The notes under the pieces: model-generated
What the model was told of the DNA's origin: nothing
Database searches by the model: none
What the model saw: only the letters and a program-made list of their open reading frames with translations
Shown here: positions 818-45,661 of the stretch, piece by piece
Layout of the letters: the number at the start of each line of letters is the position of its first letter
Numbering within the stretch: the stretch's first letter is position 1
Assembly (NCBI GenBank): GCA_963920705.1
Contig: OY987231.1
Location: forward strand, 6,813,424 to 6,877,423
Direction: 5' to 3'
Length of the DNA stretch: 64,000 nt
DNA from: Odiellus spinosus
Taxonomy: Eukaryota > Arthropoda > Arachnida > Opiliones > Phalangiidae
Translations under genes and position numbers: made by a program

Positions 818-2610
818 TTATTTCAAATCGGCTACGGCCGCTGCTAAAGAATGCACTACTGCCGTTTCGGCTCCTTCGAGTTGAGGCTGCGCGAAGAGGT
901 ACACTTGTTCGGAATGCCCGCCGTGATGACCTCCGTGATGACCTCCGCCACCGTGAGAACTGTGATGACCGTGATCGTGATGAGCTCCGTCTTCCCAGTG
1001 TTTGTGATGATGACCACCGTGTTTCTTGTGATCGTGATGACCGTGGTGGTGCTTGCCTCCCTCATGGTGTTCGTCTCCGTGGTGTTTCTTCCAATGTCCG
1101 TGACCGTGTTTGCCGTGGTCTTCTTTGTGATGTTTGTGAGCGTGATATTTCTTTCCGTGATCGCCGTGCGCGTATTTGCCTCCGTGATGGTCCCAGTGTT
1201 TGTGGTGATCCTATAGGAAAACGAACAAAAAGGCGTTCGATTAAAGGCGAACTTTGATTACTCGATAATATTAATATACCTTGTGGTGTTTGTGGTAATC
1301 TCCTTCGCGGAAGATGTCGTGATGAGTTTGATGATCGCCGTGCTCGATCTTATGGTAAGATTTTTTGAAGCCGTGTTTCTTGTGCCCTTTATCGTGATAA
1401 TGATGTTTGCCTTCCTTGCCTTTTTCGTGCCCCTCTCCACCGAAATGTTTTTTGAAATGATGACCGTGATCTTCGTGTCCGTGTTTCGATGATCCGTGCT
1501 TATGACCACCGTGATGATCAAAGTGGTGTCCGCCGTGTTTGTGATCATGATGTCCACCAAATTTTTTCCAATGACCGTGATGATGATCACCTGCGTTTTA
1601 AATCAAAGCATTTTTACCCGTATTCTGGACAGTTCTGGTAGGTGTCGGTATAGTTTTCCCATTTTGAAATATATATATTTCATTTAAGAAACGTTTTCCC
1701 CCTCGACCGAGACTGCATGCTAAGGTGGAGAGAGAAAATAACAAGAAGCGAAAGTATTGCATACCGTGCTTATGCCCAGATCCCCATTCGCCGTGTTCAC
1801 CGCCGTGTCCGTGTTTGTGTCCATGATGGCCGTGGCTATCATGTCCGTGATGGTGGTGATGTCCGTGATGAGATTCAGCCGCTTGCAGGTCTGTACCTTC
1901 TCGTTCTATTTTATCTTGTACATTTTGGGCGGATGTTATGGCCGCAACTGTTAGGCATAGCAGCGCCAAACCCTGTGACGTAGAACGTAAAATAATTTAG
2001 TACAATAATTAAGCTAAATGCATCCAATTCTGTATATAATTAGTTCACAATCAAAAGCCTCGAGTGAAACGGAACCAAACTCAATTAGTTATCTAATTAC
2101 GACTTCCGTCGAGCAATAGTTAACGGCTGTCTCAGTTCCAGCCAGCCAACTTAATCCACGAAATACTTTTCGTGAAACGAAGGTTTATTCTAAACTAAAA
2201 CTATCTTTACGGATGTGAGAACTTAAATTCCTTGTTGTCATTACTCGATGGAAGTACTTATTTCCCAAGTACAATTCGATATTAGATTGCGAAGATGTTA
2301 GTCCATTTCAGCCCGAGAAACGATAAATCGGACACTTAAGCCGTGTACACACTCTAGACATTTAAACCGTTTCAGAAAGATCAAATTGTAAAATTTTGAG
2401 GTCAACTGTAAAGATTATTTCCTAAAATATATAATTATCTTGAAAAGTTGATTTGAAGACTCAAAAACGAATTGACAACTAATTTTAAAGCCTCTAATGC
2501 GAACTCACTATTGTTCGTTATTAATCGCGTACTTTTGAGTGTTAAGGAACAATATTTGAGAGTTTTACATATCCTCAATAACGTACCATTGGCCACCTAG
2601 AAAAGGCCAT
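818..2610 (-). CDS. HRP-A: secreted histidine-rich protein, 4 exons, 311 aa
   Basis: Spliced model on the minus strand: exon 1 2587-2610, exon 2 1765-1972, exon 3 1280-1590, exon 4 818-1210, total 936 nt including a TAA stop. Donors read GTACGT, GTATGC and GTATAT; acceptors are all AG; junction phases are 0, 1 and 0 and the frame stays open throughout. Exon 1 encodes MAFSRWPM and joins GLALLCLTVAAITSA at residue 9, giving a complete signal peptide with likely cleavage after Ala23. The mature protein is roughly one third His, with Gly, Lys and Asp, and few hydrophobic residues. The block starting GHGHWKKHHGDEHH in exon 4 is nearly identical in the three HRP genes at 32-46 kb. HRP-A differs from them in having two extra introns and a different tail (SEQVYLFAQPQLEGAE onward, ending AVADLK). 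No enzymatic domain is visible. Metal binding or extracellular-matrix use is inferred only from composition. Confidence 0.82.
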
Positions 2611-2729
2611 GACTTGGTTTCTGGTTGTAACAAATGAACAAACTGGATAACTACCACTCTTCAAATTATTTAAGTCGTCTCTCTCAATAAGAGAGAAGTT
2701 GTACCGAAGAGTTAGAAGATTGGAAAGTG

Positions 2730-2766
2730 AATGATATCAATTGGAAAGGAGTTTGTGGTTTAAATA
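2730..2766 (-). promoter_or_regulatory. HRP-A core promoter (TATA + Inr)
   Basis: On the minus strand TATTTAA occupies 2766-2760. An initiator-like TCATTC follows at 2734-2729 with its A at 2732, 34 nt from the first T of the TATA box. The predicted ATG at 2610 gives a 5' UTR of about 122 nt. The same arrangement and spacing occur at the other three HRP genes. Confidence 0.65.
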
Positions 2767-3092
2767 CTTCCGAAATCGTTAATAGTAAAATCAAACAAAA
2801 AAAGGAATATTTTGGGGTAAAAAAAAAAAAGGTGAAAAAGCGTAACAAATAGTTGGTTTTGTTTACCGTTAGTGAGACTAGCTTCGGTACAATGTATTAT
2901 GGTTAAAGAAATCTAATCAACGCCCTAAAATATTACTTTACTATAATACTTAAAAGTTATTGTAACGCCTAGAAGAGCTTGGTAGTACTAGCCTAGTTTT
3001 TCGCCGAACTAACCACAAACCACCGGAAAAAAGTTGAACCGTTTTTTTTTCTACTAACTTTGACACTTCCTATAGCTTAAATTGTAATGATG

Positions 3093-3722: not shown

Positions 3723-4673
3723 TTTTTTAATATTTTTTGTTAAGAATGCTATAGACGCAAATTGGGTACTTAATGCGTTTTGGTATATGGTACCGTTAGT
3801 TCAATTTGAAAGCAATTTGTACTTGCCAAGTCTGGTAAAACTAGAATGGGTATTTGGCGTAATCTTTAAAGCCAATCACCGGACAATCTAGGCTACGGGG
3901 TCAGATCGTCGGTAAACCTTAAAACTTAGTATTTTTAATTCTTCAAACACTTTTTCTTTTTTCGTCTACCATCATTTTGACCTTTTTATCGTAGAGAGAA
4001 AGTAATTTTCGAATTTTCTCTGGGATGGACTCGCTCGATTGCCCATGAGGCGTTTGGTTTGGTCTTTTTACTCTTAATTGGACTTGTATACGTATAATGA
4101 CAATATCATTTGATGTAGGAGTGTTATTTTTTATCACATCACCTTAATTTGTCTATATGGGTTAAAGGAAAGTACAAATTAACATTTAATTTGAAAGAAA
4201 TTATTTCAAAATTCAATTGAAGGTGTTTTTAAATCGACATAAGATTTCTGCCGCGCGAAATCTTATAGTTTCTATTGTTTTTTAAAGAATAACTCGAGCT
4301 CAAAAGAGTGCGCAGTAAAAATTATACAGAAACATATATACTTTCAGAATTATTGAAAATACATTTTTCTACCCGAAAAAAAGATTAAACAACTAATATA
4401 GTTAATCAAAACTGACCAAACTTTCCTTAATATAATTATTTGGATAAAAGGATGTAAATAATGAAAAACACGCGTTTGCTTTTTCCAGAAGATGACTTAT
4501 TGTCAAAAACTATTGTTTGTTAAAAATTACCGCATATTTATTCTTACCCCGCGCTTGCATATGAAGTGATATAACGGCATACGTCTTTTAATTTATAAAT
4601 TTAGTTTGTGAGTTTTTAATTCAAACTTGAAGCACGCGGCGATATTTTATTTCAAAACCAGTCGGCTCATCAT
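3723..4673. other. Intergenic, nothing recognised
   Basis: Low-complexity AT-rich sequence. Short open frames near 3703-3891 (plus) and 3943-4137 (minus) have no recognisable domain, composition bias or splice context, and I do not call them genes. Confidence 0.4.
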
Positions 4674-6332
4674 AACGTCGGTTAAGCCTAGTTTCAAACG
4701 TCGGTTAAGCCTATATTTTCAAACGTCGGTTAAGCCTATATTTTCAAACGTCGATTAAGCCTATATTTTCAAACGTCGATTAAGCCTATATTTTCAAACG
4801 TCGATTAAGCCTATATTTTCAAACGTCGATTAAGCCTATATTTTCAAACGTCGATTAAGCCTATATTTTCAAACGTCGATTAAGCCTATATTTTCAAACG
4901 TCGGTTAAGCCTATATTTTCAAACGTCGGTTAAGCCTATATTTTCAAACGTCGTTTAAGCCTATATTTTCAAACGTCGGTTAAGCCTATATTTTCAAACG
5001 TCGGTTAAGCCTATATTTTCAAACGTCGGTTAAGCCTATATTTTCAAACGTCGGTTAAGCCTATATTTTCAAACGTCGGTTAAGCCTATATTTTCAAACG
5101 TCGGTTAAGCCTATATTTTCAAACGTCGGTTAAGCCTATATTTTCAAACGTCGATTAAGCCTATATTTTCAAACGTCGGTTAAGCCTATATTTTCAAACG
5201 TCGGTTAAGCCTATATTTTCAAACGTCGGTTAAGCCTATATTTTCAAACGTCGTTTAAGCCTATATTTTCAAACGTCGGTTAAGCCTATATTTTCAAACG
5301 TCGGTTAAGCCTATATTTTCAAACGTCGGTTAAGCCTATATTTTCAAACGTCGATTAAGCCTATATTTTCAAACGTCGATTAAGCCTATATTTTCAAACG
5401 TCGATTAAGCCTATATTTTCAAACGTCGATTAAGCCTATATTTTCAAACGTCGATTAAGCCTATATTTTCAAACGTCGGTTAAGCCTATATTTTCAAACG
5501 TCGGTTAAGCCTATATTTTCAAACGTCGTTTAAGCCTATATTTTCAAACGTCGGTTAAGCCTATATTTTCAAACGTCGGTTAAGCCTATATTTTCAAACG
5601 TCGGTTAAGCCTATATTTTCAAACGTCGGTTAAGCCTATATTTTCAAACGTCGGTTAAGCCTATATTTTCAAACGTCGGTTAAGCCTATATTTTCAAACG
5701 TCGGTTAAGCCTATATTTTCAAACGTCGGTTAAGCCTATATTTTCAAACGTCGGTTAAGCCTATATTTTCAAACGTCGGTTAAGCCTATATTTTCAAACG
5801 TCGGTTAAGCCTATATTTTCAAACGTCGGTTAAGCCTATATTTTCAAACGTCGGTTAAGCCTATATTTTCAAACGTCGATTAAGCCTATATTTTCAAACG
5901 TCGGTTAAGCCTATATTTTCAAACGTCGGTTAAGCCTATATTTTCAAACGTCGGTTAAGCCTATATTTTCAAACGTCGGTTAAGCCTATATTTTCAAACG
6001 TCGGTTAAGCCTATATTTTCAAACGTCGGTTAAGCCTATATTTTCAAACGTCGGTTAAGCCTATATTTTCAAACGTCGGTTAAGCCTATATTTTCAAACG
6101 TCGGTTAAGCCTATATTTTCAAACGTCGGTTAAGCCTATATTTTCAAACGTCGGTTAAGCCTATATTTTCAAACGTCGGTTAAGCCTATATTTTCAAACG
6201 TCGGTTAAGCCTATATTTTCAAACGTCGGTTAAGCCTATATTTTCAAACGTCGGTTAAGCCTATATTTTCAAACGTCGGTTAAGCCTATATTTTCAAACG
6301 TCGGTTAAGCCTATATTTTCAAACGTCGGTTA

Positions 6333-6485: not shown

Positions 6486-6511
6486 TTAAGCCTAGTTTCA
6501 AACGTCGGTTA

Positions 6512-7655: not shown

Positions 7656-9805
7656 AAATGACCTAGGGTAGAGTCGTCTATCTCTGAACGTTTTTTTAAG
7701 AAATCCCAGATCTCGATTGGTCTGGAATTTTCAGCGACGAAGTATCTAATATCAAGTTTGAATAGTTGCGGACCCGTTACGCTAGTTTCCATCATTCCAT
7801 GACGTCGACGCGGTTTTAAAGACGGCAGTAGCGACTTCTATTTCTGGACGAACGATTGTATTTCTGAACGCCCCCCTGCTTCTAAATCTGAACTAGCTTA
7901 TATACAACAAGTTGGGAAACCAAAATATAACCTCCCCGACCCCGACGTTAAGGTAATCTAACCTAACCTAACCCTACCTAAAATAAAAGATGAAAAGAAA
8001 TGTAGAGTATTGGATGAGTAGAAGAAACAGCGAAATAGGCAAAATATTATATCACATTGAACCTATATGCATTTCTTCAGTATACCAACACAACCCTAAA
8101 TAATTCTCTACTTAAAACCAAACCTAACTAGAGAAAAAAAGGAAAATAAATAAGATATAACCACATAGATTTCAAGATAAATAATCCAGTCCATAATTCA
8201 GTATTAAAACAAAAAAATCAGAATTAAGACAACTGAAATTAGCAATCTTTGGTAATATGTAAAATAGCCCTTACACGAACAATTTAAGTAAAGCAAATTA
8301 TCAAATAAACGCCAAATAAGTCAATTAAAATTAAAAATATTAATCTTACCACTACCAAATAGCGGGCAGAAAACACAGACATCAAGATAACATTAGCAAA
8401 ATAAATTTTCAACACCGGTAATCCTGAGAACTAGATTCTACAAAATCTTCTGGAATAATAAATTTATTTTAATCTAAAAAATATAAAATCTTAAAAAAAA
8501 TATCTATACAAATAACATATTGATAAACCAATTAAAATTAGATGCGAAAAACATTTAATCTCGATATGAGATTAAATACACAAGGTCAAGGTTCTTCTTT
8601 TAAAACCATATCAGAATTTTGACGGTTGTAGAGTATTTGTAGACCAAGTAACGTGAAAAGGCAAAATGTTATATCAAATTGAACCTATACATGGCTTCAG
8701 TATACAACACAAGTTGTGAAACAAACGTTATTTTACGTGACTACACACTAGCTAAAACATCACCGAAAATAAACGACAGTAGGCATTAATAACTCTTTTA
8801 CGAAAACAAAAAATTACTACAGAGAAAAATGAGTCAGAAAAAAAAAACCTTTTGATTTCCAAACTAATATTTCAGTCACAACTCAGTAATAAAAATTAGA
8901 GTTCAGGTCAATGAAAATATACCAAAAATGTCCAAACAAATAATAAACGCATCAAATAAATGATTCAAATTCAAAATTACTTCCTTACCAATAAATTGTA
9001 TTCAAACGAATGAAACTTAATTTAAAATTTCAACGAGTCAAATCTCTAGAGAACAAACTTCGTCGAAGATTTCAAAAGAAATGAAACGATTTTACGTTCA
9101 ATAAATTAAAATTTAGATAAGCAAGGTCAAGGTCCCTCAGTAAAATCATATCGGCGTTAAGAAAACTAGAGTATTTGTAGACCAAGTAACGTCATTAGGC
9201 AAAATATTTCATCAAAATCAAGTTATGACCTCGGTATCGTCATATAACCGTAAATAAACATATTCAATAAACAATTAACGAATAAGCTTTCCGCATAACA
9301 CGCTAAACTACGAACTGTGACGTACAATTTCGCTTTTTGGTGCTACACGACCTACAGATACCTTATAAGCCTACGTCTAAAAACACGTTTTTTGGTGATA
9401 ATGCTGTGAGTAAAGAATAGATGTTTCTCTTTTGGCCCTACCATAAATTTTTTATATTTTTTTTTCTGACAGGGCAGGCCTGAGTAAAAATATACCAAGT
9501 TGTGAAACAAACGTCATTTTACGTGACTCCACACTAGCTAAAATGTTACCGGAAATACACGACAGTAGGCATTAAAAGCCTGGTTCTATTATACTTAATT
9601 GGGATTAACATTAAATTCATGTATGAAAAAGTGTGAAACTAAAACTAGCAGTCATCACGAGATCCAATCACGTGATTCTTTTCCTCACTCTGTCTACATT
9701 TCACTCTTGGGTCAACCATATCATACATGACTATTAAAACACGAGAAATTTCAATGTCAATCCGGTTTAAGAAAGTTCGTCAATTGTTAATTGTGGCATG
9801 ACTAA

Positions 9806-10330
9806 AGCCGGATTCACACAGACCTATTTTCACGCTTTTCACGGTCACGCGCGAGGGGCAATGGGCAAACCACTCTTGGAATCAGGTGTACAAACTAAAT
9901 GGAATCACGCGAATCGATTCGGAATCAGGAGAATCGATACGGAATCACGCGAATCGATTCGGAATCACGCGAATCGATACGGAATCACGCGAATCGATTC
10001 GGAATCACGCGAATCGATTCGGAATCACGCGAATCGATTCGGAATCACGAGAATCGATACGGAATCACGCGAATCGATACGGAATCACGCGAATCGATAC
10101 GGAATCACGCGAATCGATTCGGAATCACGCGAATCGATTCGGAATCACGCGAATCACGAATCAATTCGGAATCACGCGAATTGATTCGGAATCACTGACA
10201 ATCAAATGAATCTGGAATCAGGTGTACAAAATTTTTCTAGAGTGGTTTGCACCTCGCTCGCGCGTGCTAATGGTACTTCTATGAGTTCACGAGCGTGAAA
10301 CGCGTAAAAACAGGTCTGTGTGTATCCGCG
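9806..10330. mobile_element. Foldback element carrying a 20-bp array (left arm)
   Basis: The left end (CCGGATTCACACAGACCT..TTCACGC, then GCAAACCACTCT near 9870) is inverted at the right (AGAGTGGTTTGCACC near 10240, then AGGTCTGTGTGTATCCGCG ending near 10330). GGAATCAGGTGTACAAA directly flanks the internal array on both sides. This is a palindromic non-autonomous element whose centre has expanded into a satellite. Confidence 0.6.
9897..10195. repeat. 20-bp tandem array, about 14-15 units
   Basis: The unit is GGAATCACGCGAATCGATTC with variants (GAATCGATAC, CACGAGAATC). Because 20 is not a multiple of 3 and the unit has no stop, all three plus frames stay open and spell the same 20-residue cycle (frames of 99-128 codons). 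These frames are a consequence of the repeat, not evidence of a protein. Confidence 0.92.
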
Positions 10331-11750
10331 TTAACCTGGTTCGCTCTGCGCATGTACACAATTTCGCACGAAATAAATTTGCGAAACGCGCGAAAATTAT
10401 AAAAAAATTAATTTGAAAATCCGTGCCAGTAATTAAAACCAAATACGCCACTGTTTGCAAGTTTGCCAGAAGATGACGATATTTCCCCATACATGAAGCT
10501 GATTCTCCCAAGAATATCAAAAAAAATCACATTGATATTTTCCATGCGTAAAGAGGTTTCCGACTTCAAATTTAGTGGTCTACACATACTCGCGTGCTGG
10601 CGAACTCGATTTTACACGTGTCACAAATACACTGGAAACCTACTCTACTTCTGTTCGAGGAGAGTTTTCACGACTATCATTTTTCTTAAGTGGTTTAACA
10701 TTATGCATAAATCCGCCTCAGCTTCAAATCTTATACACCAATTCCCCTTGAACTGGTTAAAAATTCACCGAGTATAATCGAAGTTATTATTGTCTTATCT
10801 CTTATCTAAATTATGTTGTTTCAATCTTCCATACCCGTGTAAACGCACCTTTATTTAAGTTCTTCAATCCACCCCAAGTTTGCACCAGAGATAAGCCTAT
10901 ACTGCCCGTTATACCTTTGCTTTTTCGAGTAAATGATATATATGGAAAATAGCTTAGGCGCATGCTGCCAACTAAAACTGCCATTAATCGGTCAAATTTC
11001 TTTAAATTTTTGCATAAATTCTCAAATAACTTCTAAACTATCTCGAATTTTAAATTAATTTTTCGACTTTCTAATTAATTAGATTAAGATGAACCATTTT
11101 AATATTTTTAATTATAATATAAATTAATATTGCGTTTCATTTCCCTAAACAATATCAAACAAAATCACCCCATGAGGCTAATTTGCATTCGTTCCAAAAA
11201 GATACTATATAAACCTTTCGAAGGGCTATATTAATCGAAGTAACCGTGCGTGATGGCCATGAAGTTAGGGGGAAAACCCCCCCCCCCCTTTCAATGTCTT
11301 GCTGATTCTTGATCTCTAGGCGCTTGGCGACGCAATTTACCCATTGGTGGGGCGATGTTTGGAGTCAGTGGAAGGTTGATGTGAACTGTACTAGTGGGGG
11401 ACGCCTCGCTAGTATGGAACGCTGAGATCGGAAACTGGAGGTTGGACCTTGGTGCGGGGATGGTCGGAGGTGATTATGACAGTGGGAGACGTCCCATTGC
11501 TTATAATCGCCTTCGGCTGTTCAGCATCAAGGTTCGACCGTAAAGTGGATGGTGGAATGCGATGATGTGCAATGGGAGACGTCCTGTTGTATGTCTTTGC
11601 ACGACACTTGAAACTCAATGTGGCAGCCACGCTTAAAGGAGGTAATTCCCCGGAATTGAACGATAAGCTGGTATGATTACGTCTCTAGACTTTTGGCTCC
11701 ACGAGCTAGGTCACGTGACTTCCGTTTACACAGGATATCCGCTTACACAC

Positions 11751-11797
11751 ACAGACAGACACACAGACAGACAGACAGACAGACAGACACACAGACA
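11751..11797. repeat. GACA/CACA microsatellite (left arm)
   Basis: A run of CAGACAGACA and CACACAGACA. The mirrored copy lies in the right arm near 28108-28160. Confidence 0.85.
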
Positions 11798-13110
11798 CGA
11801 CCAGTGTAACACCTCCCCCTGAACTAAAGTTCAGTCGGGGAGGTAAAAAATCCCAATTTTGCAAAAGGAGCCACTGCCGCACCTCGAATCGAGAAATGAG
11901 TGTCATCAATCGGCGACTCAAAAATTAGGCATCGCTTTGGCATAGAACCCATAAAGGAGTCCTCATTTCAAAGGAAATTGTCGATAACTTCGCAAATACT
12001 GGCTCACTTTTCAAATACTGGCTCGAGTTGAGTTTCTGTTTTTCCCTATCCATACTTTAGCACTCCCAATGTACCATTTTCCAAAAAGTGCACCAAGTTA
12101 GGAGGTCCGACCTACTAAATTTGCGTATTTCGCACCGTTCAGAATTAGAAATTTTTGAAGTTACGTTTTCGCAAAGAGTTTGTGACCAAATTCTGGTTTT
12201 GCGAAGTTTATTTACGACGAAATCGAGCGCGTAAGCCCGCGATTTTCCCGAAGCTCGTAAAATCTTATTTCCCGGACAGTAAAAGGAAACATTACCTTAA
12301 TAACGGTCTAATTAATTAGGCTAATTATCGCGGTTGCCTAATTAGTGTCATATCTTCTCCTGGTCTTTTCCTATAGTGTTGAAGCTATGTTCCGCGAATA
12401 GCTCCATTCTTAATCTACAAAATGAGCCCTTCCATCTTTAAATAGACCCAACAAAAGTTAAGTTATACGTTTTTTAAATGAAAGTGTTCAGAAATAGAAG
12501 TATTCCGATTTAGGAGGACTGACCATATATATTTTTGACATTTTCATATTGTAGTTTCTTATGAACTCTTCAATTTTGAATACAACGTTTTAATAGTGTA
12601 ATAAAATTAAAAATATTGTCCATCGACATTCGAAAGAAATGATGACAATCTGACTTTAAATATTACGCAACCCTTTTCGTATTCGAGGTTGAATTTAAGA
12701 AGCTAAAAATTAAAAAAATAAACTGGTTATTCTTCTACTTCTATTTTAAATTCAATATATTTGTTATTTTAAGGGTTTATATATTTATATATAAAAACGG
12801 GTCCCGAGAGTGGCTCCTATCCGTATCATATTTATCACCCAATCAGATAACTCAAAAACCGCTTTTAAGTTTGACTTTTTTTTTACATATTAACATTAAA
12901 GTGATTCCCTCACTATTAATTTTTTTATTTCAAATGGGTGTGTGCATTTTATTACCTTACCCAGAAAATTATACATTTAGTTTTAAACTCATAAGTCGTT
13001 TAATTACGTTGTAATTAACGTCATGAAGTGGGTGAAATTTAATTTTAAAATTTTTTAAAACAAACGCGTCAATTTTACTACGAAAAAATCATATTAATTT
13101 CGAGTTGTCT

Positions 13111-15513: not shown

Positions 15514-18500
15514 ATGTTTGGTGTTAGAATCTTGGGGGTATGTACTGTTTTAATAATGATATAAGTCGTTTAATAGTTATAAATTGGTAATTTATGGCAT
15601 AAATTACCAGAGTAATTAAGGCGTTGTTTTCAATTAATATTTTTCTGGCAAAAAAGTATTTTTTTCGTCATTACTAAGTTACGACGAAAATATTTTTTTG
15701 GACCAAAAGAAAAAGCTTGATTGAAAGTTTAACGTTTAAATCTTCCTGGAGTATACTTTTCAGTAGTTATTCGTGGTGGGCGTTGTTAAGGGTGTGTTAA
15801 TGTATTTTTTTCATGTCCGACTCACTGCATTGCAAACACAAATGGTCACGAAAAACATTGCAATTGTCCCGAGTAAAATGATTTTCAGTCAGAAATAAGA
15901 ATTTTGAAGAGTTTGAAAGAGTACTTCCGCATTTTTAAATAACAGAAATGTAAATACAATTAATTTTGTAAATATCGGTGAATTACCAATTTCCAAAATT
16001 ACTGTAATTTTAAAACTATGGTCTCTTTTAAATTCACGTTTACAGTAATGGATACATGGTAGTAGAACTCATTGAAAACTTTATAATATTATAAGTCATT
16101 GTAGGAATACCAGTTACCCGATTAAGTAACGTAATTGACATTACAGGCTTGGCTTCTAGTCCTCTACCTTCAAGTGGAAGGATTGCCGTTGGTGGACCTA
16201 CCTGTTGTATATCCTGAAAATCGAAACCGTTCAAATAGGGATGGTGTTACTTTCCCCGGCGGGTCATCGAAGCTAGAACCACCCCTGGATACTAACGGAA
16301 ACCCAACGTGCGTGTCCTCAAAGACGGAGCTATTCTGCGAGAGTGTTCCCAACTACCCGGCGTTCGTAAGATTAATTTAAAACTCTTTTTGGTTTGATTT
16401 GTCGAAATAATTTTTGCATTATTCAACTTTCAAATTGACGCTATATAAATGAAGGAAGTATTTTTAATGTAGGGGTGGAATACGCAAGTTGATGTTGTAT
16501 AGTCCTAAGGAGTTCCAGAACATGTTTGGTGTCAAAGGAATTAGTACAAGGAGGACCATTTCTCACGAAGATTTATCCGAGGAAGCCTTGTGCGAGACTA
16601 GATCACCCGTAATATTCCCCAAAGTAGCCAAAAATGAAGAAAATAAGTGGAGATACGTCATTAACGATATAGACTACGTGCAAGCTGTGGTTACTGAACT
16701 CTGCACGTAAGTTTAATTATAAGGGTATGCTCCTTTCGTTATTGCTAAGCCTAATTATAAGATTATTCTGATCAATTCAATTACTAAGCCTAAATACAAG
16801 GCTCTTCTGGTTCAATTCCTAAGCCTAAATATAAGATTCTTCCCATCATTTTAATTGCTAAGCCTAAATATAACATTCTTCTGATCAATTCAATTGCTAA
16901 GCCTAAGTATGAGGCTCTTCTGGCTCTATTCCGAAGCCTAAATATAAGAATCTTCTGATAATTCAGTTGTTAAACCTAAATATAAGATTCTTTTGGTTCA
17001 ATTGCTAAGCCTAAATATAAGTTTCTTATCAATTCAATTGCTAAGCCTAAATATAAGTTTCTTATCAATTCAATTGCTAAGCCTAAATATAAGTTTCTTA
17101 TCAATTCAATTGCTAAGCCTAAATATAAGTTTCTTATCAATTCAATTGCTAAGCCTAAATATAAGTTTCTTATCAATTCAATTGCTAAGCCTAAATATAA
17201 GTTTCTTATCAATTCAATTGCTAAGCCTAAATATAAGTTTCTTATCAATTCAATTGTTAAGCCTAAATATAAGTTTCTTATCAATTCAATTGTTAAGCCT
17301 AAATATAAGTTTCTTATCAATTCAATTGCTGAGCCCAAATATAAGTTTCTTATCAATTCAATTGCTAAGCCTAAATATAAGTTTCTTATCAATTCAATTG
17401 CTAAGCCTAAATATAAGTTTCTTATCAATTCAATTGCTAAGCCTAAATATAAGTTTCTTATCAATTCAATTGCTAAGCCTAAATATAAGTTTCTTATCAA
17501 TTCAATTGCTAAGCCTAAATATAAGTTTCTTATCAATTCAATTGCTAAGCCTAAATATAAGTTTCTTATCAATTCAATTGCTAAGCCTAAATATAAGTTT
17601 CTTATCAATTCAATTGCTAAGACTAAATATAAGTTTCTTATCAATTCAATTGCTAAGACTAAATATAAGTTTCTTATCAATTCAATTGCTAAGACTAAAT
17701 ATAAGTTTCTTATCAATTCAATTGCTAAGACTAAAAAACTTCTTCTGGTAAATTCAATTGCTAAGACTAAAAAGATTCTTCTGGTAAATTCAATTGCTAA
17801 GACTAAAAAGATTCTTCTGGTAAATTCAATTGCTAAGACTAAAAAGATTCTTCTGGTAAATTCAATTGCTAAGACTAAAAAGATTCTTCTGGTAAATTCA
17901 ATTGCTAAGACTAAAAAGATTCTTCTGGTAAATTCAATTGCTAAGACTAAAAAGATTCTTCTGGTAAATTCAATTGCGAAGACTAAAAAGATTCTTCTGG
18001 TAAATTCAATTGCTAAGACTAAAAAGATTCTTCTGGTAAATTCAATTGCTAAGACTAAAAAGATTCTTCTGGTAAATTCAATTGCTAAGACTAAAAAGAT
18101 TCTTCTGGTAAATTCAATTGCTAAGACTAAAAAGATTCTTCTGGTAAATTCAATTGCTAAGACTAAAAAGATTCTTCTGGTAAATTCAATTGCTAAGACT
18201 AAAAAGATTCTTCTGGTAAATTCAATTGCTAAGACTAAAAAGATTCTTCTGGTAAATTCAATTGCTAAAACTAAAAACATTCTTCTGGTAAATTCAATTG
18301 CTAAAACTAAAAAGATTCTTCTGGTAAATTCAATTGCTAAGACTAAAAAGATTCTTCTGGTAAATGCATTGCTAAGCCTAAATATAAGATTCTTATGATC
18401 AATTCAGTTGATATAAGATTCTTTTGATCATTTCAATTGTTAAGCCTAAATATAAGGCTCTTTTGGTGCAATTCCTAAGCCTAAATATAAGATTATTCTG

Positions 18501-27940: not shown

Positions 27941-29574
27941 CGGATTGGGTGTCAAAACGAAAATCGAGTCTGAGTTGTTGGTTAAATATTATAATCACTT
28001 AACGTTAATTTGAAAAATTCTGGATCTTGAAAACGAAATAACGGCAATGTTATTATTTTTACCTCCCCGACTGAACTTTAGTTCAGGGGGAGGTGTTACA
28101 CTGGTCGTGTCTGTGTGTCTGTCTGTCTGTCTGTCTGTCTGTGTGTCTGTCTGTGTGTGTAAGCGGATATCCTGTGTAAACGGAAGTCACGTGACCTAGC
28201 TCGTGGAGCCAAAAGTCTAGAGACGTAATCATACCAGCTTATCGTTCAATTCCGGGGAATTACCTCCTTTAAGCGTGGCTGCCACATTGAGTTTCAAGTG
28301 TCGTGCAAAGACATACAACAGGACGTCTCCCATTGCACATCATCGCATTCCACCATCCACTTTACGGTCGAACCTTGATGCTGAACAGCCGAAGGCGATT
28401 ATAAGCAATGGGACGTCTCCCACTGTCATAATCACCTCCGACCATCCCCGCACCAAGGTCCAACCTCCAGTTTCCGATCTCAGCGTTCCATACTAGCGAG
28501 GCGTCCCCCACTAGTACAGTTCACATCAACCTTCCACTGACTCCAAACATCGCCCCACCAATGGGTAAATTGCGTCGCCAAGCGCCTAGAGATCAAGAAT
28601 CAGCAAGACATTGAAAGGGGGGGGGGGTTTTCCCCCTAACTTCATGGCCATCACGCACGGTTACTTCGATTAATATAGCCCTTCGAAAGGTTTATATAGT
28701 ATCTTTTTGGAACGAATGCAAATTAGCCTCATGGGGTGATTTTGTTTGATATTGTTTAGGGAAATGAAACGCAATATTAATTTATATTATAATTAAAAAT
28801 ATTAAAATGGTTCATCTTAATCTAATTAATTAGAAAGTCGAAAAATTAATTTAAAATTCGAGATAGTTTAGAAGTTATTTGAGAATTTATGCAAAAATTT
28901 AAAGAAATTTGACCGATTAATGGCAGTTTTAGTTGGCAGCATGCGCCTAAGCTATTTTCCATATATATCATTTACTCGAAAAAGCAAAGGTATAACGGGC
29001 AGTATAGGCTTATCTCTGGTGCAAACTTGGGGTGGATTGAAGAACTTAAATAAAGGTGCGTTTACACGGGTATGGAAGATTGAAACAACATAATTTAGAT
29101 AAGAGATAAGACAATAATAACTTCGATTATACTCGGTGAATTTTTAACCAGTTCAAGGGGAATTGGTGTATAAGATTTGAAGCTGAGGCGGATTTATGCA
29201 TAATGTTAAACCACTTAAGAAAAATGATAGTCGTGAAAACTCTCCTCGAACAGAAGTAGAGTAGGTTTCCAGTGTATTTGTGACACGTCTAAAATCGAGT
29301 TCGCCAGCACGCGAGTATGTGTAGACCACTAAATTTGAAGTCGGAAACCTCTTTACGCATGGAAAATATCAATGTGATTTTTTTTGATATTCTTGGGAGA
29401 ATCAGCTTCATGTATGGGGAAATATCGTAATCTTCTGGCAAACTTGCAAACAGTGGCGTATTTGGTTTTAATTACTGGCACGGATTTTCAAATTAATTTT
29501 TTTATAATTTTCGCGCGTTTCGCAAATTTATTTCGTGCGAAATTGTGTACATGCGCAGAGCGAACCAGGTTAAC

Positions 29575-30100
29575 GCGGATACACACAGACCTGTTTTTAC
29601 GCGTTTCACGCTCGTGAACTCATAGAAGTACCATTAGCACGCGCGAGCGAGGTGCAAACCACTCTAGAAAAATTTTGTACACCTGATTCCAGATTCATTT
29701 GATTGTCAGTGATTCCGAATCAATTCGCGTGATTCCGAATTGATTCGTGATTCGCGTGATTCCGAATCGATTCGCGTGATTCCGAATCGATTCGCGTGAT
29801 TCCGTATCGATTCGCGTGATTCCGTATCGATTCTCGTGATTCCGAATCGATTCGCGTGATTCCGAATCGATTCGCGTGATTCCGAATCGATTCGCGTGAT
29901 TCCGTATCGATTCTCCTGATTCCGAATCGATTCGCGTGATTCCGAATCGATTCGCGTGATTCCGTATCGATTCTCCTGATTCCGAATCGATTCGCGTGAT
30001 TCCATTTAGTTTGTACACCTGATTCCAAGAGTGGTTTGCCCATTGCTCCTCGCGCGTGACCGTGAAAAGCGTGAAAATAGGTCTGTGTGAATCCGGCTTT
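29575..30100. mobile_element. Foldback element with 20-bp array (right arm)
   Basis: Mirror copy of 9806-10330: CGCGGATACACACAGACCTG at the left and AGGTCTGTGTGAATCCGGC at the right, with AGAGTGGTTTGC internal ends. The 20-bp array is at 29708-30005. Confidence 0.6.
29708..30005. repeat. 20-bp tandem array, about 14-15 units (right arm)
   Basis: The unit is GAATCGATTCGCGTGATTCC. It has the same total length as the left-arm array, but the internal variants (CTCCTGATTC, GTATCGATTC) are in a different order. This suggests conversion or independent turnover since the arms were formed. Confidence 0.9.
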
Positions 30101-32250
30101 AGTCATGCCACAATTAACAATTGACGAACTTTCTTAAACCGGATTGACATTGAAATTTCTCGTGTTTTAATAGTCATGTATGATATGGTTGACCCAAGAG
30201 TGAAATGTAGACAGAGTGAGGAAAAGAATCACGTGATTGGATCTCGTGATGACTGCTAGTTTTAGTTTCACACTTTTTCATACATGAATTTAATGTTAAT
30301 CCCAATTAAGTATAATAGAACCAGGCTTTTAATGCCTACTGTCGTGTATTTCCGGTAACATTTTAGCTAGTGTGGAGTCACGTAAAATGACGTTTGTTTC
30401 ACAACTTGGTATATTTTTACTCAGGCCTGCCCTGTCAGAAAAAAAAAATATAAAAAATTTATGGTAGGGCCAAAAGAGAAACATCTATTCTTTACTCACA
30501 GCATTATCACCAAAAAACGTGTTTTTAGACGTAGGCTTATAAGGTATCTGTAGGTCGTGTAGCACCAAAAAGCGAAATTTTACGTCACAGTTCGTAGTTT
30601 AGCGTGTTATGCGGAAAGCTTATTCGTTAATTGTTTATTGAATATGTTTATTTACGGTTATATGACGATACCGAGGTCATAACTTGATTTTGATCAAATA
30701 TTTTGCCTAATGACGTTACTTGGTCTACAAATACTCTAGTTTTCTTAACGCCGATATGATTTTACTGAGGGACCTTGACCTTGCTTATCTAAATTTTAAT
30801 TTATTGAACGTAAAATCGTTTCATTTCTTTTGAAATCTTCGACGAAGTTTGTTCTCTAGAGATTTGACTCGTTGAAATTTTAAATTAAGTTTCATTCGTT
30901 TGAATACAATTTATTGGTAAGGAAGTAATTTTGAATTTGAATCATTTATTTGATGCGTTTATTATTTGTTTGGACATTTTTGGTATATTTTCATTGACCT
31001 GAACTCTAATTTTTATTACTGAGTTGTGACTGAAATATTAGTTTGGAAATCAAAAGGTTTTTTTTTTCTGACTCATTTTTCTCTGTAGTAATTTTTTGTT
31101 TTCGTAAAAGAGTTATTAATGCCTACTGTCGTTTATTTTCGGTGATGTTTTAGCTAGTGTGTAGTCACGTAAAATAACGTTTGTTTCACAACTTGTGTTG
31201 TATACTGAAGCCATGTATAGGTTCAATTTGATATAACATTTTGCCTTTTCACGTTACTTGGTCTACAAATACTCTACAACCGTCAAAATTCTGATATGGT
31301 TTTAAAAGAAGAACCTTGACCTTGTGTATTTAATCTCATATCGAGATTAAATGTTTTTCGCATCTAATTTTAATTGGTTTATCAATATGTTATTTGTATA
31401 GATATTTTTTTTAAGATTTTATATTTTTTAGATTAAAATAAATTTATTATTCCAGAAGATTTTGTAGAATCTAGTTCTCAGGATTACCGGTGTTGAAAAT
31501 TTATTTTGCTAATGTTATCTTGATGTCTGTGTTTTCTGCCCGCTATTTGGTAGTGGTAAGATTAATATTTTTAATTTTAATTAATTGACTTATTTGGCGT
31601 TTATTTGATAATTTGCTTTACTTAAATTGTTCGTGTAAGGGCTATTTTACATATTACCAAAGATTGCTAATTTCAGTTGTCTTAATTCTGATTTTTTTGT
31701 TTTAATACTGAATTATGGACTGGATTATTTATCTTGAAATCTATGTGGTTATATCTTATTTATTTTCCTTTTTTTCTCTAGTTAGGTTTGGTTTTAAGTA
31801 GAGAATTATTTAGGGTTGTGTTGGTATACTGAAGAAATGCATATAGGTTCAATGTGATATAATATTTTGCCTATTTCGCTGTTTCTTCTACTCATCCAAT
31901 ACTCTACATTTCTTTTCATCTTTTATTTTAGGTAGGGTTAGGTTAGGTTAGATTACCTTAACGTCGGGGTCGGGGAGGTTATATTTTGGTTTCCCAACTT
32001 GTTCATATTTATATTTAATTATTCTGTCATTTTTAATGTTGTAAGGTAAAATAATTTATAAAGACACGCTTCGATATGAAACCAAAATAATTTAATTTAG
32101 GTTTTAATACGGATTAAAATTAACATTACAATCATTTCTCATCTGTTAAAATTGAAGTAGAGAACGTTAAAATATTTGGCAAAGTTTCGCGACTATGGCT
32201 AAAAAGGAATACAGCTCTTTATTATTAAGTACATTTTTAACGAGGTTAAT

Positions 32251-34360
32251 TTAAAGTTTTTTAAACATATGTAGTGGAATGTTATGATACACTTCCCTGA
32301 TAACGATTGGAGCGTCTTTAGTAATTGTAAAATATTGCTGCGAATAAGAACCACTACCGCTGCCGCCTTCACCATGTTCTTCGTGTCCACCTTCGTCACC
32401 TCCTCCCCCGCTTTCGTGACCTTCATGGCCGCCTTCGTCACCTCCACCCCCGCTTTCATGACCTTCATGTCCGCCTTCGTCACCTCCGCCCCCGCTTTCG
32501 TGACCTTCATGTCCGCCTTCGTCACCTCCTCCGCTTTCGTGACCTTCATGTCCGCCTTCGTCACCGCCTCCCCCACTTTCATGACCTTCATGCCCGCCTT
32601 CGTCACCGCCGCCTCCGCTTTCGTGACCTTCATGTCCGCCTTCGTCATCTCCCCCTCCACTTTCGTGACCTTCATGCCCGCCTTCGTCACCTCCTTCTCC
32701 ACCTTCGTGTTCGCCTTCGTCACCTCCTCCTCCTCCTCCTCCTCCACTTTCGTGACCTTCGTGTCCGCCTTCATCACCTCCACCTTCGTGTCCGTGTCCA
32801 TCACCAAGTAACCAATGATGCCACCAATCATCATGACCGCCAAACCCGCCATCGTGGTAAAACATATCGCCGTCGTGCTCCCATCCATGATCTTCGTGGT
32901 CCCCATGACCACCTTCTCCGCCACCTCCTCCGTGGTGATCGTGTCCACCATCGTCTCCTCCGTCCCCACCACCGTGACCCCCATCGTGACCACCGTGACC
33001 TCCGTGTCCACCATCGTGACCGTGTTTCGATTCTTCTCCCTTCTTATGATGTTCACCATCTTCCCAGTGCTTCTTGAAATGTCCTCCGTGTTTCTTGTGT
33101 TCGTGATGACCGTGGTGATGTTTTCCTCCCTTATGGTGTTCGTCTCCGTGGTGTTTCTTCCAATGTCCGTGACCGTGCTTTCCGTGTTCTTCTTTGTGGT
33201 GTTTATGGGCGTGATGTTTCTTACCGTGGTCCTTTTTCTCGTGTTTACCTCCTTCGTGTTTCCAATGTTTCTTGAACTCTTTGTGTTGTTTTTTCTTATC
33301 ACCGTCGTTCCAAACATCGTGGTATTTCTTATTTTGTCCGTGTTCTTTTTTATGGTAGGATTTCTTGAAGCCGTGCTTCTTGTGTCCTTTTTCTTTGTGA
33401 TGGTCTAAACCATGTTTTCCCTTTTTATGTCCTCCGCCTTCGTAATGTTTCTTGTGATGATGTCCGTGATTATCGTGCCCGTGTTCTTTGTGTCCTTCTT
33501 CCTTGCCACCGAGTTTTTTGAAATGATGTCCTCCTTTTTCTTCGTGATGATGTCCGCCGTATTTTTTAAACTTTCCATGTTCGTGGTGATCTTTTTTGTG
33601 ACCTTTCTCGTGTTCACCGTGTTCCTTACCGTGACCTTCCTTCTTACCGTGATGACCTTCGCTTTCGTGACCCTCTTTGTGATGATGCCCTTCTTGATGG
33701 TGACCCGATTCGGCCGGTATCAGTTCGGTGATCTTTAAGATCTCCGTCGATGAGACATCGAGTTCTTTGGTAATATTTGTCGTAGCTTTCCCCAATGTTT
33801 GGTAACACGTCACCAAACATAGAAGCAGACCCTTAATTAGAATCGTATATATTAACGTTAATGTACCGAAATTTCTTGTAAATTGCTTCTAAAACTTTGT
33901 AGCTAATTTGCTAGTAGTTTATAGTAACAAAAGCTGGAAAATAAGCTCCAAAATAGCTCTAAAACATCTCTAATTATATCTTTAAAAGTTCCTAATGAAA
34001 TTATAAAATTTATTTAAGAATCAGCGCGTCTTTATTTATTTATAAAGCCTGGTTTTATTTGAGTTTCAGTTATCCCCAACGTCTCAGTCTTCAACAATAT
34101 TCGAGTATGTTTCAAGTGCCGTCTATTTCACTGAAATTCAAATCTAACCAAGCTAATTCTCTAAGTTTTGTTAAAAAAAATATCAAATTTTTATTATTCT
34201 CAATTTTTGGGTGCAAATTCCAAAAATAAATTCAAATGGCGGTTTCATTTTCACCTCATCGTTATAATCATAAAGTTAAAAGATAGTCTAGAAGCAATTT
34301 AAATAATTTGAACGAAAAATCGAAAAATTCGTATCTTACAAATTGGTACTTGAGAAGCAT
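32251..34360 (-). CDS. HRP-B: secreted histidine-rich protein, 2 exons, 533 aa
   Basis: Exon 1 is 34340-34360 (MLLKYQF, donor GTAAGA); exon 2 is 32251-33831 and begins after TTAAG with GLLLCLVTCYQTLGKA. The join is phase 0, as in the other HRPs, and yields a signal peptide with likely cleavage near residue 20-23. Next come a PAESGH motif, His/Lys/Gly-rich sequence and the shared core (GHGHWKKHHGDEHHKGG..KHWEDGEHH). A Gly/Asp/His stretch containing WWHH follows, then about ten 12-17-residue repeats of GGHEGHESGGGGDE type, and a terminal tail (SQQYFTITKDAPIVIREVYH) related to HRP-C and HRP-D. The exon 1 call rests on splice phase, signal-peptide logic and a promoter at the expected place, not on homology of its residues. 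Extracellular metal binding or coacervation is a composition-based guess. Confidence 0.8.
32375..32790 (-). repeat. Coding minisatellite in HRP-B
   Basis: About 42-bp units encode GGHEGHESGGG(G)DE, with length changes in the glycine run (3 to 8 Gly) that are multiples of 3. The frame is kept throughout. Unit number is likely variable between individuals. Confidence 0.85.
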
Positions 34361-34493: not shown

Positions 34494-34529
34494 TCTGAGT
34501 ATCTTGGCTGATCTAGAAAGGTTTAAATA
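34494..34529 (-). promoter_or_regulatory. HRP-B core promoter (TATA + Inr)
   Basis: TATTTAA occupies 34529-34523 and TCAGA 34498-34494, with the initiator A at 34496, 33 nt from the first T of the TATA box. The predicted ATG is 136 nt downstream; a very short upstream frame (ATG CAT TGA) lies between. Confidence 0.7.
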
Positions 34530-38113: not shown

Positions 38114-39444
38114 CTATACTTGTTTGGGATACCATGGCATGTGATTGTAGATTTTCTTAACGATCATCGGCCCCTCTTTCTTGATGACGTAGTAATGGTG
38201 GGAACCTTCTCCCCCTCCCCCACCTTCGTGATCCCCGTCATGGCCACTGTCCCAATCGTGTCCTTCTTCGTGAGAACTTTCATGTCCTTCCTCGTGCCAA
38301 CCGTGATCGCCTCCTTCATCACCACCCCCATGCCCACCATCGTGATCATCTCCTCCGCCACTGTGTCCTCCATCATGATCCCAACCGTGATGTTCGTGTC
38401 CACCATCGTGGTGTTCTTCATGATGCCCGTGACCACCGTGTCCCCCATCATGACCTCCGTGTCCACCATCGTGACCGTGACTCGATTCGTGTTCCTTCTT
38501 GTGGTGTTCGCCGTCTTCCCAGTGCTTCTTGTGATGTCCTCCGTGTTTCTTGTGTTCGTGATGACCGTGATAATGTTTACCTCCCTTCTGGTGTTCGTCT
38601 CCGTGATGTTTCTTCCAATGTCCGTGACCGTGTTTGCCGTGGTCTTCCTTGTGATGTTTATGGGCGTGATGTTTCTTACCGTGATCCTTCTTTTCGTGTT
38701 TGCCTCCTTCGTGTTTCCAGTGCTTCTTGAATTCCTTGTGATGTTTCTTGTAGTCGCCGTCTTGGTGGACATCGTGGTACTTCTTATGATCACCGTGTTC
38801 GATCTTGCTGTATGATTTCTTGAATCCGTGTTTCTTGTGTCCCTTGTCCTTGTGATGGTGTTTGCCTACTTTCCCTTTTTCGTGTCCGCCTCCGTGCCAG
38901 TGTTTCTTGTGATGATGTCCCTTGGCTTCGTGGCCGTGTTCTTTGTGCCCTTCTTCCTTGCCGCCGTGTTTCTTGAAATGATGACCTCCCTTTTCGGCGT
39001 GATGATGACCCTTGTGCTTCTTATGATGGCCGTGTTCGTGCTTACCCTTTTTATATCCCTTTTCGTGGTGACCGTGTTCACCCCCGTGTCCTTCCTTTTT
39101 GTGGTGTTTTCCACCCTTCTCGTGTCCGTGTCCATGTTCGTCTTCGTGTCCGTGTCCCCCGTGCCATCCGTGCCCAGATTCGGCGGGTTCTAATTCTTTG
39201 AATTCGACTTCGATGTGGGAGCTTTCCACCGCTTCCAGTTCCGTTTCATCTTCGATGCTTTTGGCAAACGTGTTTGAAATGCAGAACAGAAGAAGGCACG
39301 TTGTTACGAGTCCCTATGTTGAATTACGTTAATTAGTACAAATATCTCTTAGAATATTAATTTTTCATATTTAAAAGTACTTGTTAAAATGGATAAATAG
39401 TTTTTAATTCATATACGTACCAATGGGACTCTGAATAGAATCAT
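38114..39444 (-). CDS. HRP-C: secreted histidine-rich protein, 2 exons, 407 aa
   Basis: Exon 1 is 39421-39444 (MILFRVPL, donor GTACGT); exon 2 is 38114-39313 (acceptor TAG, TAG stop). The phase-0 join gives MILFRVPLGLVTTCLLLFC continuing ISNTFA, a clear signal peptide with cleavage expected before KSIEDE (residue 26). An acidic linker ending ELEPAESGHG leads into His/Lys/Gly-rich sequence, the shared core (GHGHWKKHHGDEHQKGG), Gly/His/Asp repeats with HHGWDHDGG, and a less polar tail (HHYYVIKKEGPMIVKKIYNH). It is a close paralogue of HRP-D, including in its 5' UTR. Long open frames on the opposite strand are by-products of CAY/GGN codon use and are not genes. Confidence 0.85.
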
Positions 39445-39513
39445 GGTTGTTTCTTGTATATCTTTCTCTCTAGGAGCTACTATTGATTTCCGAAGAGTAG
39501 CGAGAGAAGATGA

Positions 39514-39552
39514 AGTCTGATTGAATTTCCGAAAATTGAATCAACTTAAATA
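39514..39552 (-). promoter_or_regulatory. HRP-C core promoter (TATA + Inr)
   Basis: TATTTAA is at 39552-39546 and TCAGACT at 39520-39514; the initiator A at 39518 is 34 nt from the TATA T. The 5' UTR stretch with CTCTCGCTACTCTTCGGA is shared with HRP-D. Confidence 0.75.
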
Positions 39553-41094: not shown

Positions 41095-41587
41095 CAAGGT
41101 TAGTAAAGAGACAGGTTAGGCAGATTCTGACGTCAGCCGGAAGTTACCTAGCGCGCAGCCATCTTCCAAATTCCTTTGACAATTGCTAGATGGCGGTTTA
41201 TATTGTAATTACGGCGGGAATTTCAAACTAATATCCAATATGTTGTTTCCAATGAACGTTTCCAGGTGGCATTAAGGTCAAGCCGACTCAAGCGACTGAG
41301 TGGAATACGAACTGAACTGAACTAATTTGAATATAGTGAAATTTATGCTTGATTATAGTGAAACGTATGTTAAAGCGTTACCTACGCTATATGACAATCG
41401 ACTTACTAAGTGCCACCTGGCAGAGTTCATTGGAAACAACATATTGGATATTAGTTTGAAATTCCCGCCGTAATTACAATATAAACCGCCATCTAGCAAT
41501 TGTCAAAGGAATTTGGAAGATGGCTGCGCGCTAGGTAACTTCCGGCGGACGTCAGAATCTGCCTAACCTGTCTCTTTACTAACCTTG
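41095..41587. mobile_element. M4 foldback element with about 180-bp arms and 8-bp target duplication
   Basis: The left arm (about 41095-41280) starts CAAGGTTAGTAAAGAGACAG; the right arm (about 41405-41587) is its near-perfect inverse and ends CTCTTTACTAACCTTG. Flanks ATACAACT (41087-41094) and GTACAACT (41588-41595) match at 7 of 8 bases. The loop of about 125 bp has no open frame. Confidence 0.85.
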
Positions 41588-43683: not shown

Positions 43684-45661
43684 CTACGATTTTTTGGGGT
43701 ACAATGGCATGTGACTGTAGATTTCTTTAACGATCATCGGTCCTTCTTTCTTGATGATGTAGTAATGATGAGAACCTTCTTTGTGTCCGCCACTTTCTCC
43801 GCCTCCACCGCCATCTCCTCCACCTTCGTGACCCCCGTCATGGCCGCTTGACCAATCGTGTCCTTCTTCGTGAGAACTTTCGTGCCCTTCCTCGTGCCAG
43901 CCGTGATCGCCCCCATGATCGCCTCCTCCTTCACCACCCCCGTGACCACCATCATGATCATCTCCTCCGCCGCTGTGTCCTCCATCGTGATCCCAGCCGT
44001 GATGCTCGTGTCCACCATCGTGACCCCCGTCGTGGCCCCCGTGACCCCCATCGCCTCCTCCGTGGCCGCCGTCGTGACCCCCGTGACCCTCATCGCCTCC
44101 TCCGTGTCCACCATCGTGGCCACCGTGACCCCCATCGCCTCCTCCGTGTCCACCATCGTGGCCACCGTGGCCCCCATCGCCTCCTCCGTGTCCATCATCG
44201 TGACCCCCACCATGACCTCCGTGTCCACCATCGTGTCCGTGTTTCGATTCGTGTTCCTTCTTGTGGTGTTCGCCGTCTTCCCAGTGCTTCTTGTGATGTC
44301 CTCCGTGTTTCTTGTGTTCGTGATGACCGTGATAATGTTTACCTCCCTTGTGGTGTTCGTCTCCGTGATGTTTCTTCCAGTGTCCTTTTCCGTGTTTGCC
44401 ATGATCGTCCTTGTGATGTTTATGGGCGTGATGTTTTTTACCGTGGTCTTTCTTTTCGTGTTTGCCTCCTTCGTGTTTCCAGTGCTTCTTGAATTCCTTG
44501 TGATGTTTCTTGTAGTCGCCGTCTTGGTGGACATCGTGGTACTTCTTATGATCACCGTGTTCGATCTTGCTGTATGATTTCTTGAATCCGTGTTTCTTGT
44601 GTCCCTTGTCCTTGTGATGGTGTTTGCCTACTTTCCCCTTTTCGTGTCCGCCTCCGTGCCAGTGTTTCTTGTGATGATGTCCCTTGCCGTCGTGGCCGTG
44701 TTCTTTGTGTCCTTCTTCCTTGCCGCCGTGTTTCTTGAAATGATGACCTCCCTTTTCGGCATGATGATGACCCTTGTGCTTCTTATGATGGCCGTGTTCG
44801 TGCTTGCCTTTTTTATGTCCCTTTTCGTGGTGACCGTGTTCACCCCCGTGTCCTTCCTTTTTGTGGTGTTTTCCACCGTTCTCGTGTCCGTGTTTATGTC
44901 CATGTTCTTCGTGACCGCCGTCGTGACCTCCGTGACCGTGTCCTCCGTGGCCGGATTCGGCGGGCTCCAATTCTTTGACCTCGACTTCGATTTTTGAGCT
45001 CTCCGCTATTTCCAATTCCGTTTCATCGTCGATGCTTTTGGCAAACGCGCTCGAAATGCAGAACAGAAGAAGGCACGTCGTTACGAGTCCCTATATTGGA
45101 TAAATTTGATTAGTACTGTATACAATCATATTCTAAGGACCGTTTTAAACTTTGTTTTATTTTAGAAGTTACTCAAAACATTATCATTATTATACATCGG
45201 TTCAAGAGGAATTTGCCTATAATGCGTAAAGCCGAAATCCTTGATACATAATTATAAAATTTCTATTGGATACTTCTTTCTAAGGAAAGTTTTATACTGC
45301 CAACTTCCTTCTATGTAAAGCTTTCTATTTTGCTAAGGAAAGATTTCTACTTTGTCTACTCTTTTCTAATGAAAGTTTTCTATTGGCATACTATTTCTAA
45401 TAAAGATACTATAATGCCATTGAAAGGGTGAAGTCCGCTTGAACGAACCACTTAGCCGAAAAGAGAGAGTGCAACCTAGAGCCAATTTGAATTTAAGTGC
45501 TTAACATTCATTTATCCTATTTCCAAAATAACCCGGCCAATAACCCTGCAGCTAGTATAATATAATTTTATTATTCTTGTTTCTTAATGTTATCTCGTAA
45601 CATTTCTTAAATAAGAGAATTTTGAAATGATACATACCAATGGGACTCTGAAGAGAATCAT
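43684..45661 (-). CDS. HRP-D: secreted histidine-rich protein, 2 exons, 476 aa
   Basis: Exon 1 is 45638-45661 (MILFRVPL, donor GTATGT); exon 2 is 43684-45090 (acceptor ATAG, TAG stop). The signal peptide continues GLVTTCLLLFCISSAFA, with cleavage expected before KSIDDE. The linker ends ELEPAESGHG. It shares near-identical sequence with HRP-C through the core (GKGHWKKHHGDEHHKGG..KHWEDGEHHKKEHES). It is longer mainly because of extra 14-residue Gly/His/Asp repeats at 44010-44230. The tail HHYYIIKKEGPMIVKEIYSH matches HRP-C. HRP-C and HRP-D are recent tandem duplicates in the same orientation about 4.2 kb apart. Confidence 0.85.
44010..44230 (-). repeat. Coding minisatellite in HRP-D
   Basis: 42-bp units encode GGHGGHDGGHGGGD-type 14-mers, about four to five copies. 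HRP-C has at most one equivalent. This expansion accounts for most of the length difference between the two proteins. Confidence 0.8.

Follow-up and report, generated by a model that had tools for sequence, protein, structure and literature searches.

A family of secreted histidine-rich proteins with split signal peptides, related to spider DUF4779-type proteins and probably deposited in the cuticle, in Odiellus spinosus (Opiliones)

Cuticular protein genes of arthropods provide described counterparts for the layout of the genes analyzed here. As described for Anopheles, 86% of the intron-bearing genes for R&R cuticular proteins (CPR) are interrupted within the signal peptide, the first coding exons span 3-36 nt excluding the 5'UTR (both median and mode 12), a TATA box and an initiator are found in 93% of the genes, and the shortness of the first exons hinders annotation (PMC2259329). 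Among Drosophila secreted proteins, predominantly cuticle proteins, phase-0 introns show a peak at position 5 (PMC1626468), and spiders possess large clustered CPR families, with histidine unmentioned in the available part of the respective report (PMC10810088). Hardening through histidine is described for several systems: in cuticle, cross-linking of His-rich proteins proceeds through laccase2 and catechols (PMC8062583, PMC4440208), His-Zn bonds harden Nereis jaws (PMC6477608), and in the spider fang Zn cross-links with histidines (PMC8326826).

Here we analyze four genes for histidine-rich proteins, HRP-A to HRP-D, in a window of 64,000 nucleotides from Odiellus spinosus (assembly GCA_963920705.1, contig OY987231.1, positions 6,813,424 to 6,877,423), to which all window coordinates refer. 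The first-pass annotation of this DNA placed the start codons of the four genes in separate tiny exons, and all four of these exons are indeed present: the ATG (minus strand positions 2610, 34360, 39444 and 45661 in HRP-A, -B, -C and -D, respectively) opens a run of 7-8 codons, directly behind which come a GT donor and a phase-0 intron, and the next exon begins with GGN-Leu (GGT-TTG in HRP-A, GGT-CTG in HRP-B, GGA-CTC in HRP-C and HRP-D). HRP-A consists of four coding exons, with two further introns, and each of the other three genes of two. The features of the four genes are as follows.

818..1210, minus strand: HRP-A exon 4, ending at the stop codon
1280..1590, minus strand: HRP-A exon 3, in which the conserved core begins
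1765..1972, minus strand: HRP-A exon 2, with the signal-peptide core GLALLCLTVAA...
2587..2610, minus strand: HRP-A first coding exon, 8 codons, MAFSRWPM, donor GTACGT
2760..2766, minus strand: TATTTAA box of HRP-A
32251..33831, minus strand: HRP-B exon 2, ending at the stop codon; His/Gly-rich, with 14-codon tail repeats
34340..34360, minus strand: HRP-B first coding exon, 7 codons, MLLKYQF, weak donor GTAAGA
34523..34529, minus strand: TATTTAA box of HRP-B
38114..39313, minus strand: HRP-C exon 2, ending at the stop codon
39421..39444, minus strand: HRP-C first coding exon, 8 codons, MILFRVPL, donor GTACGT
39546..39552, minus strand: TATTTAA box of HRP-C
43684..45090, minus strand: HRP-D exon 2, ending at the stop codon
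45638..45661, minus strand: HRP-D first coding exon, 8 codons, MILFRVPL, donor GTATGT
45772..45778, minus strand: TATTTAA box of HRP-D

The joined products comprise 311 (HRP-A), 533 (HRP-B), 407 (HRP-C) and 476 (HRP-D) residues, without internal stops. As the annotation had also stated, scanning for open reading frames misses the first exons, and this architecture matters for annotation in general: calls based on open reading frames only drop the start codon and the signal peptide of all these genes.

Two inverted arms of 3.9 kb, 99-100% identical and 16.2 kb apart (window 7906-11849 and 28056-32003), carry CCTCCCC/GGGGAGG near their ends, with no evident target-site duplication; the pair may represent a recent repeat element present in two copies. 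The distance between the end of the right arm and the stop codon of HRP-B is about 250 bp. Satellite-like tandem arrays lie between and beyond the HRP genes.

4674-6332: tandem array, period 25 bp
16741-18491: tandem array, period 36 bp
46217-48135: tandem array, period 24/26 bp
49378-49886: tandem array, period 29 bp
54792-56040: tandem array, period 20 bp

The family had initially been counted as four genes, which proved too small a number. Searching all 286 contigs of the assembly (443 Mb; the window is C7:6813424-6877423) yielded 17 matching places on three contigs, and a family of four was rejected on these genome-wide matches and the gene models built from them. Altogether, 11 His-rich members and one divergent His-poor neighbor, E8204, were modelled, the former number being a lower bound given that only the best candidates were scored. 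In addition to the window genes, a second cluster about 1.3 Mb away on the same contig contains five His-rich genes (F8209, G8216, H8224, I8230 and J8235), and two further His-rich members are located elsewhere (K on C16, M on C15). A phase-0 split start is present in all 12 modelled members, with 3-9 codons preceding the intron: eight codons in A, C, D, G, H, I, J and K (8 of the 12), seven in B, nine in E, five in M and three in F. The junction reads GGN-Leu in A-D, I and J and Gly-Met in H, and differs in the others. E8204 (C7, approximately 8,199,660-8,201,210; positions 4664-6211 of locus L009) is His-poor (3%) and lysine-rich, has a phase-0 split start and gives a faint match to HRP-C (E 4.2e-4); it is possibly a divergent family member.

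The possibility that the tiny first exons are artefacts, the actual transcripts having different first exons or internal starts, appears highly improbable. It draws on weak donors: under a generic donor matrix, the HRP genes score between 0.5 and 5.8, with the lowest values in the C15 gene (0.5) and HRP-B (0.8), followed within the window by HRP-C (2.5), HRP-D (3.4) and HRP-A (4.0); the acceptor of HRP-B is AAG. Against it stands the observation that exon 2 of each window gene contains no in-frame Met between the acceptor and the signal core, on which ground internal starts in the large exons were rejected. The next Met after exon 1 occurs only at residue 330 in HRP-B, 391 in HRP-C and 460 in HRP-D, and HRP-A has none; in HRP-C and HRP-D the TAG of the acceptor doubles as an in-frame stop. 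Furthermore, exon 1 is retained while intron 1 diverges in the three paralogue pairs that were compared, one in the window (C/D) and two in the second cluster (I/J and H/I): the coding identity of exon 1 is 96%, 92% and 92%, and intron 1 aligns at 53%, 50% and 49%, respectively. Judging from these alignments and gene models, the conservation of exon 1 relative to intron 1, together with the split start retained in 12 of 12 modelled members, is above chance.

The first exon as a whole is likely not small. The motif GTATTTAA precedes the ATG by about 157, 170, 109 and 118 nt in HRP-A, -B, -C and -D, respectively. Of ten genes scanned over the 260 nt preceding the ATG, seven (A, B, C, D, H, I and J) contain GTATTTAA, compared with 1.5-2.9% of background stretches of that length, and F, K and M do not; any TATA-like pattern was found in all ten, compared with 32-35% of background stretches, the genes being related and hence not independent events. 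Given the distance of 109-170 nt between GTATTTAA and the ATG, the first exon of the window genes, provided that no intron interrupts the 5'UTR, would be an ordinary one, likely consisting of a 5'UTR and 21-24 coding nt, with only the coding part short. As far as the sequence tells, the label of micro-exon that had been attached to these exons probably does not apply, and this reading was set aside on the TATA-box distances.

Comparison with CPR genes of the same genome, in which PF00379 matches at 89 places and whose CPR sequences we take to be chelicerate from their appearance, places this layout in context. Of 31 distinct CPR genes, 9 were accepted as having a split signal peptide, the others being undecided rather than shown to differ; examples are MFR/FACVCVLLVAVTAQ, MIAK/VTLLCALVAMARAG and MLK/IALCLCVVVVAVHGG, with the slash marking the split. 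Scanning of 30 loci gave candidates at four, of which L023 (with a weak donor), L042 and L043 were accepted and the doubtful L047 was dropped; a stricter scan of 14 loci gave candidates at seven, of which L050, L051, L052, L055, L057 and L058 were accepted and L060 was dropped. The two sets overlap in 13 genes, and the stricter scan missed the genes accepted earlier as L042 and L043. In the antisense control, a candidate appeared at 1 of 14 loci vs 7 of 14 in the sense direction. A Met close before the hydrophobic core was seen in none of 30 R&R-bearing frames, a count of little weight given that most frames open only a few codons upstream, and at L042 an in-frame Met lies further upstream in its frame. 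The accepted CPR genes have 3-5 codons before the intron and the window HRPs 7-8; the CPR-like combination of a short first coding exon and an intron in the signal peptide occurs in all 12 family members. The novelty implied for the tiny first exons is thus not borne out, the layout being common in cuticle genes as described (PMC1626468, PMC2259329) and present in some of the CPR genes of this genome. The HRP exon layout is standard for arthropod cuticle genes, not exclusive to them.

A signal-peptide-like N terminus was detected in each of the joined HRP-A to HRP-D products using a rule-based scan (not SignalP): a short leading segment precedes a hydrophobic core, whose best Kyte-Doolittle mean over 10 residues is 2.6-2.7, and cleavage sites are plausible. 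The extracellular location proposed in the first-pass annotation accordingly finds good support, for all four proteins, in the predicted N termini and in the absence of Cys and scarcity of Met in the mature parts. With cleavage sites placed by hand, the mature parts contain no Cys in any of the 12 members, 0-2 Met in HRP-A to HRP-D, and 14-32% His in the 11 His-rich members (3.5% in E8204). The AlphaFold (AF2) model of HRP-C exon 2 shows the signal helix only, with a mean pLDDT of 40, a value also lowered by the thin, six-row alignment from which the model was built; extrapolating from this model of HRP-C only, the mature HRPs are probably disordered. Metal binding is plausible from the His composition; condensate formation is at most conceivable, the evidence for it going no further than sequences of low complexity and a single protein model of low confidence.

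Relatives outside this genome were detected by profile search. No credible Pfam match was obtained for A-D, F8209, K and M, with HRP-A scanned as exon 4 alone and then whole, and HRP-B, -C and -D as exon 2; a DUF2852 match of HRP-A was at chance level and was discarded, and four other open reading frames of the window gave no credible Pfam match. In the same seven proteins there was no match to PF00379 or to PF16009 (DUF4779; gathering cut-off 27 bits), and no known chitin-binding domain, R&R or other, was found in the HRPs tested. Searches of PDB with HRP-C exon 2 and of NCBIfam with HRP-C exon 2 and M gave no match, and neither did single-protein database searches with HRP-C and with F8209; the alignment query did match. 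When an alignment built from M, F8209, K and A was used to query 5.8 billion proteins, three of 3062 candidates matched, all of them spider proteins, from Stegodyphus dumicola, Trichonephila clavipes and Caerostris darwini (E 3.7e-21 to 8.7e-15), the first of which (E 3.7e-21) bears the database name histidine-rich glycoprotein-like. The match is carried by the patterned core GHKxxGFKxxYxKxE..., and two of the three spider relatives score above the PF16009 cut-off. Comparison of the HRP family with DUF4779 using hhalign gave a probability of 99.4% (E 2e-21, 194 columns), a score that composition may inflate. In an unrooted tree from which E8204 was left out, F8209, which sits on a long branch and has an unusual composition, joins the spider proteins (99/98), with the remaining members placed apart. 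PF16009 gave no match in a search of the Odiellus genome, though the controls of that search gave none either, and PF00372 (hemocyanin/hexamerin/phenoloxidase) had no match in six frames of this genome, an outcome unexpected for an insect though not proof of absence. With all matched relatives coming from spiders, the sequence is probably of arachnid origin, and an insect origin was set aside. The term DUF4779 is absent from the literature searched, where relatives may bear other names.

The conserved core appears to be the constrained part of these proteins. Its dN/dS is 0.03-0.18 in eight of nine pairs, with dS saturated in the ninth and above 1 in four of the other eight; by these estimates, strong purifying selection acts on the roughly 110 residues of the core, which suggests that the core has a particular task, for example assembly, binding to the matrix or the provision of spaced metal/quinone sites. 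Unlike the core, the Gly/His-rich tails vary freely. The dS of the core is lower than that of the whole gene in C/D (0.15 vs 0.34), I/J (0.10 vs 0.36) and C/I (0.42 vs 1.27), a difference that may point to gene conversion, or to constraint on codons, in the core of HRP-C, HRP-D, H8224, I8230 and J8235.

Taken by analogy with described systems, these features make it fairly probable that the HRPs are structural components of a cuticle matrix which quinones or metal harden by way of histidine. HRP-A to HRP-D would belong to a branch that is related to DUF4779-type proteins of spiders and has expanded to at least 11 His-rich genes in this genome. As predicted from the DNA, each gene would be transcribed from a TATA promoter, with the 5'UTR and the first 7-8 codons in its first exon, and a phase-0 intron would split the signal peptide. 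The products would be secreted, Cys-free, probably disordered structural proteins, most likely deposited in the cuticle, where their dense His and Lys residues may serve as reactive sites that harden the matrix, either through adducts with oxidised catechols or through coordination of Zn or other metals. Several observations weigh against this reading: the HRPs tested match neither R&R nor any other known chitin-binding domain, the window proteins do not reach PF16009, the donors of HRP-B and the C15 gene are weak, and the split signal peptide, which is not confined to cuticle genes, was accepted in only 9 of the 31 CPR genes of this genome.

Two other functions have to be weighed against deposition in the cuticle. 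The HRPs might be secreted gland products, such as silk, glue, egg coat or saliva, for which one could cite their repeat tails rich in Gly and His, the tandem expansion of the genes and the variability of the C termini, all of which suit fibrous secretions; this is unlikely, given that nothing specific points to glands and that the 5' architecture is cuticle-like, though nothing separates glands from epidermis. It is still somewhat harder to credit that the HRPs are soluble hemolymph or gut proteins that buffer metals, similar in role to the vertebrate histidine-rich glycoprotein, rather than structural ones. The high His content of the mature parts of 11 members and the name of the Stegodyphus relative are compatible with such a role, but this name presumably reflects composition only, and the absence of Cys from all 12 mature proteins, the lack of a folded domain in the one model and a gene layout that fits cuticle genes argue against it.

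A rather doubtful scenario is that the DUF4779-related family supplies the His-rich material which the fangs, chelicerae or claws of arachnids receive in advance and which Zn cross-links afterwards, in which case the two tandem clusters would represent an expanded dose. A 2016 paper by Politi and others, cited in PMC8326826, reportedly concerns, by its title, Zn and His-rich proteins of the spider fang. The available portions of the literature on such pre-deposited proteins of fangs, chelicerae or claws name no gene. Regardless of this scenario, the DUF4779-related HRPs make up a sizeable, strongly constrained, His-rich family in this arachnid, which is of greater value than the exon layout, and provide concrete candidate genes for the tanning or metal-hardening of arachnid cuticle.

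Among the known systems, CPR genes, so far as they are described, resemble the HRP genes in the TATA promoter, the short first coding exon, the intron in the signal peptide, the tandem clusters and the scarcity of Cys and Met in the mature proteins (PMC2259329); they differ in that the HRPs tested lack PF00379 and have 21-24 nt in coding exon 1, compared with the Anopheles mode of 12 nt. Tribolium TcCP30 and the Bombyx His-rich cuticular proteins (BmorCPR152 etc.) are, like the HRPs, His-rich and secreted, and cross-linking by laccase2 and catechols is reported as demonstrated for those proteins; by their descriptions, on which this comparison is based, TcCP30 is single-exon and Glu/Arg-rich and most of the Bombyx proteins are RR-2, unlike the HRPs. 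In the matrix of the spider fang and the Nereis jaw, His-coordinated Zn hardens the tool, and the Nereis jaw protein is His/Gly-rich, a likeness to the HRPs drawn from published descriptions rather than from sequence. Compared with the spider DUF4779 members, the window HRPs do not match PF16009, have Gly/His-rich tails and form tandem clusters, but they share with these proteins the core GHKxxGFKxxYxKxE..., a signal-peptide-like start and a composition rich in His, Lys and Gly.
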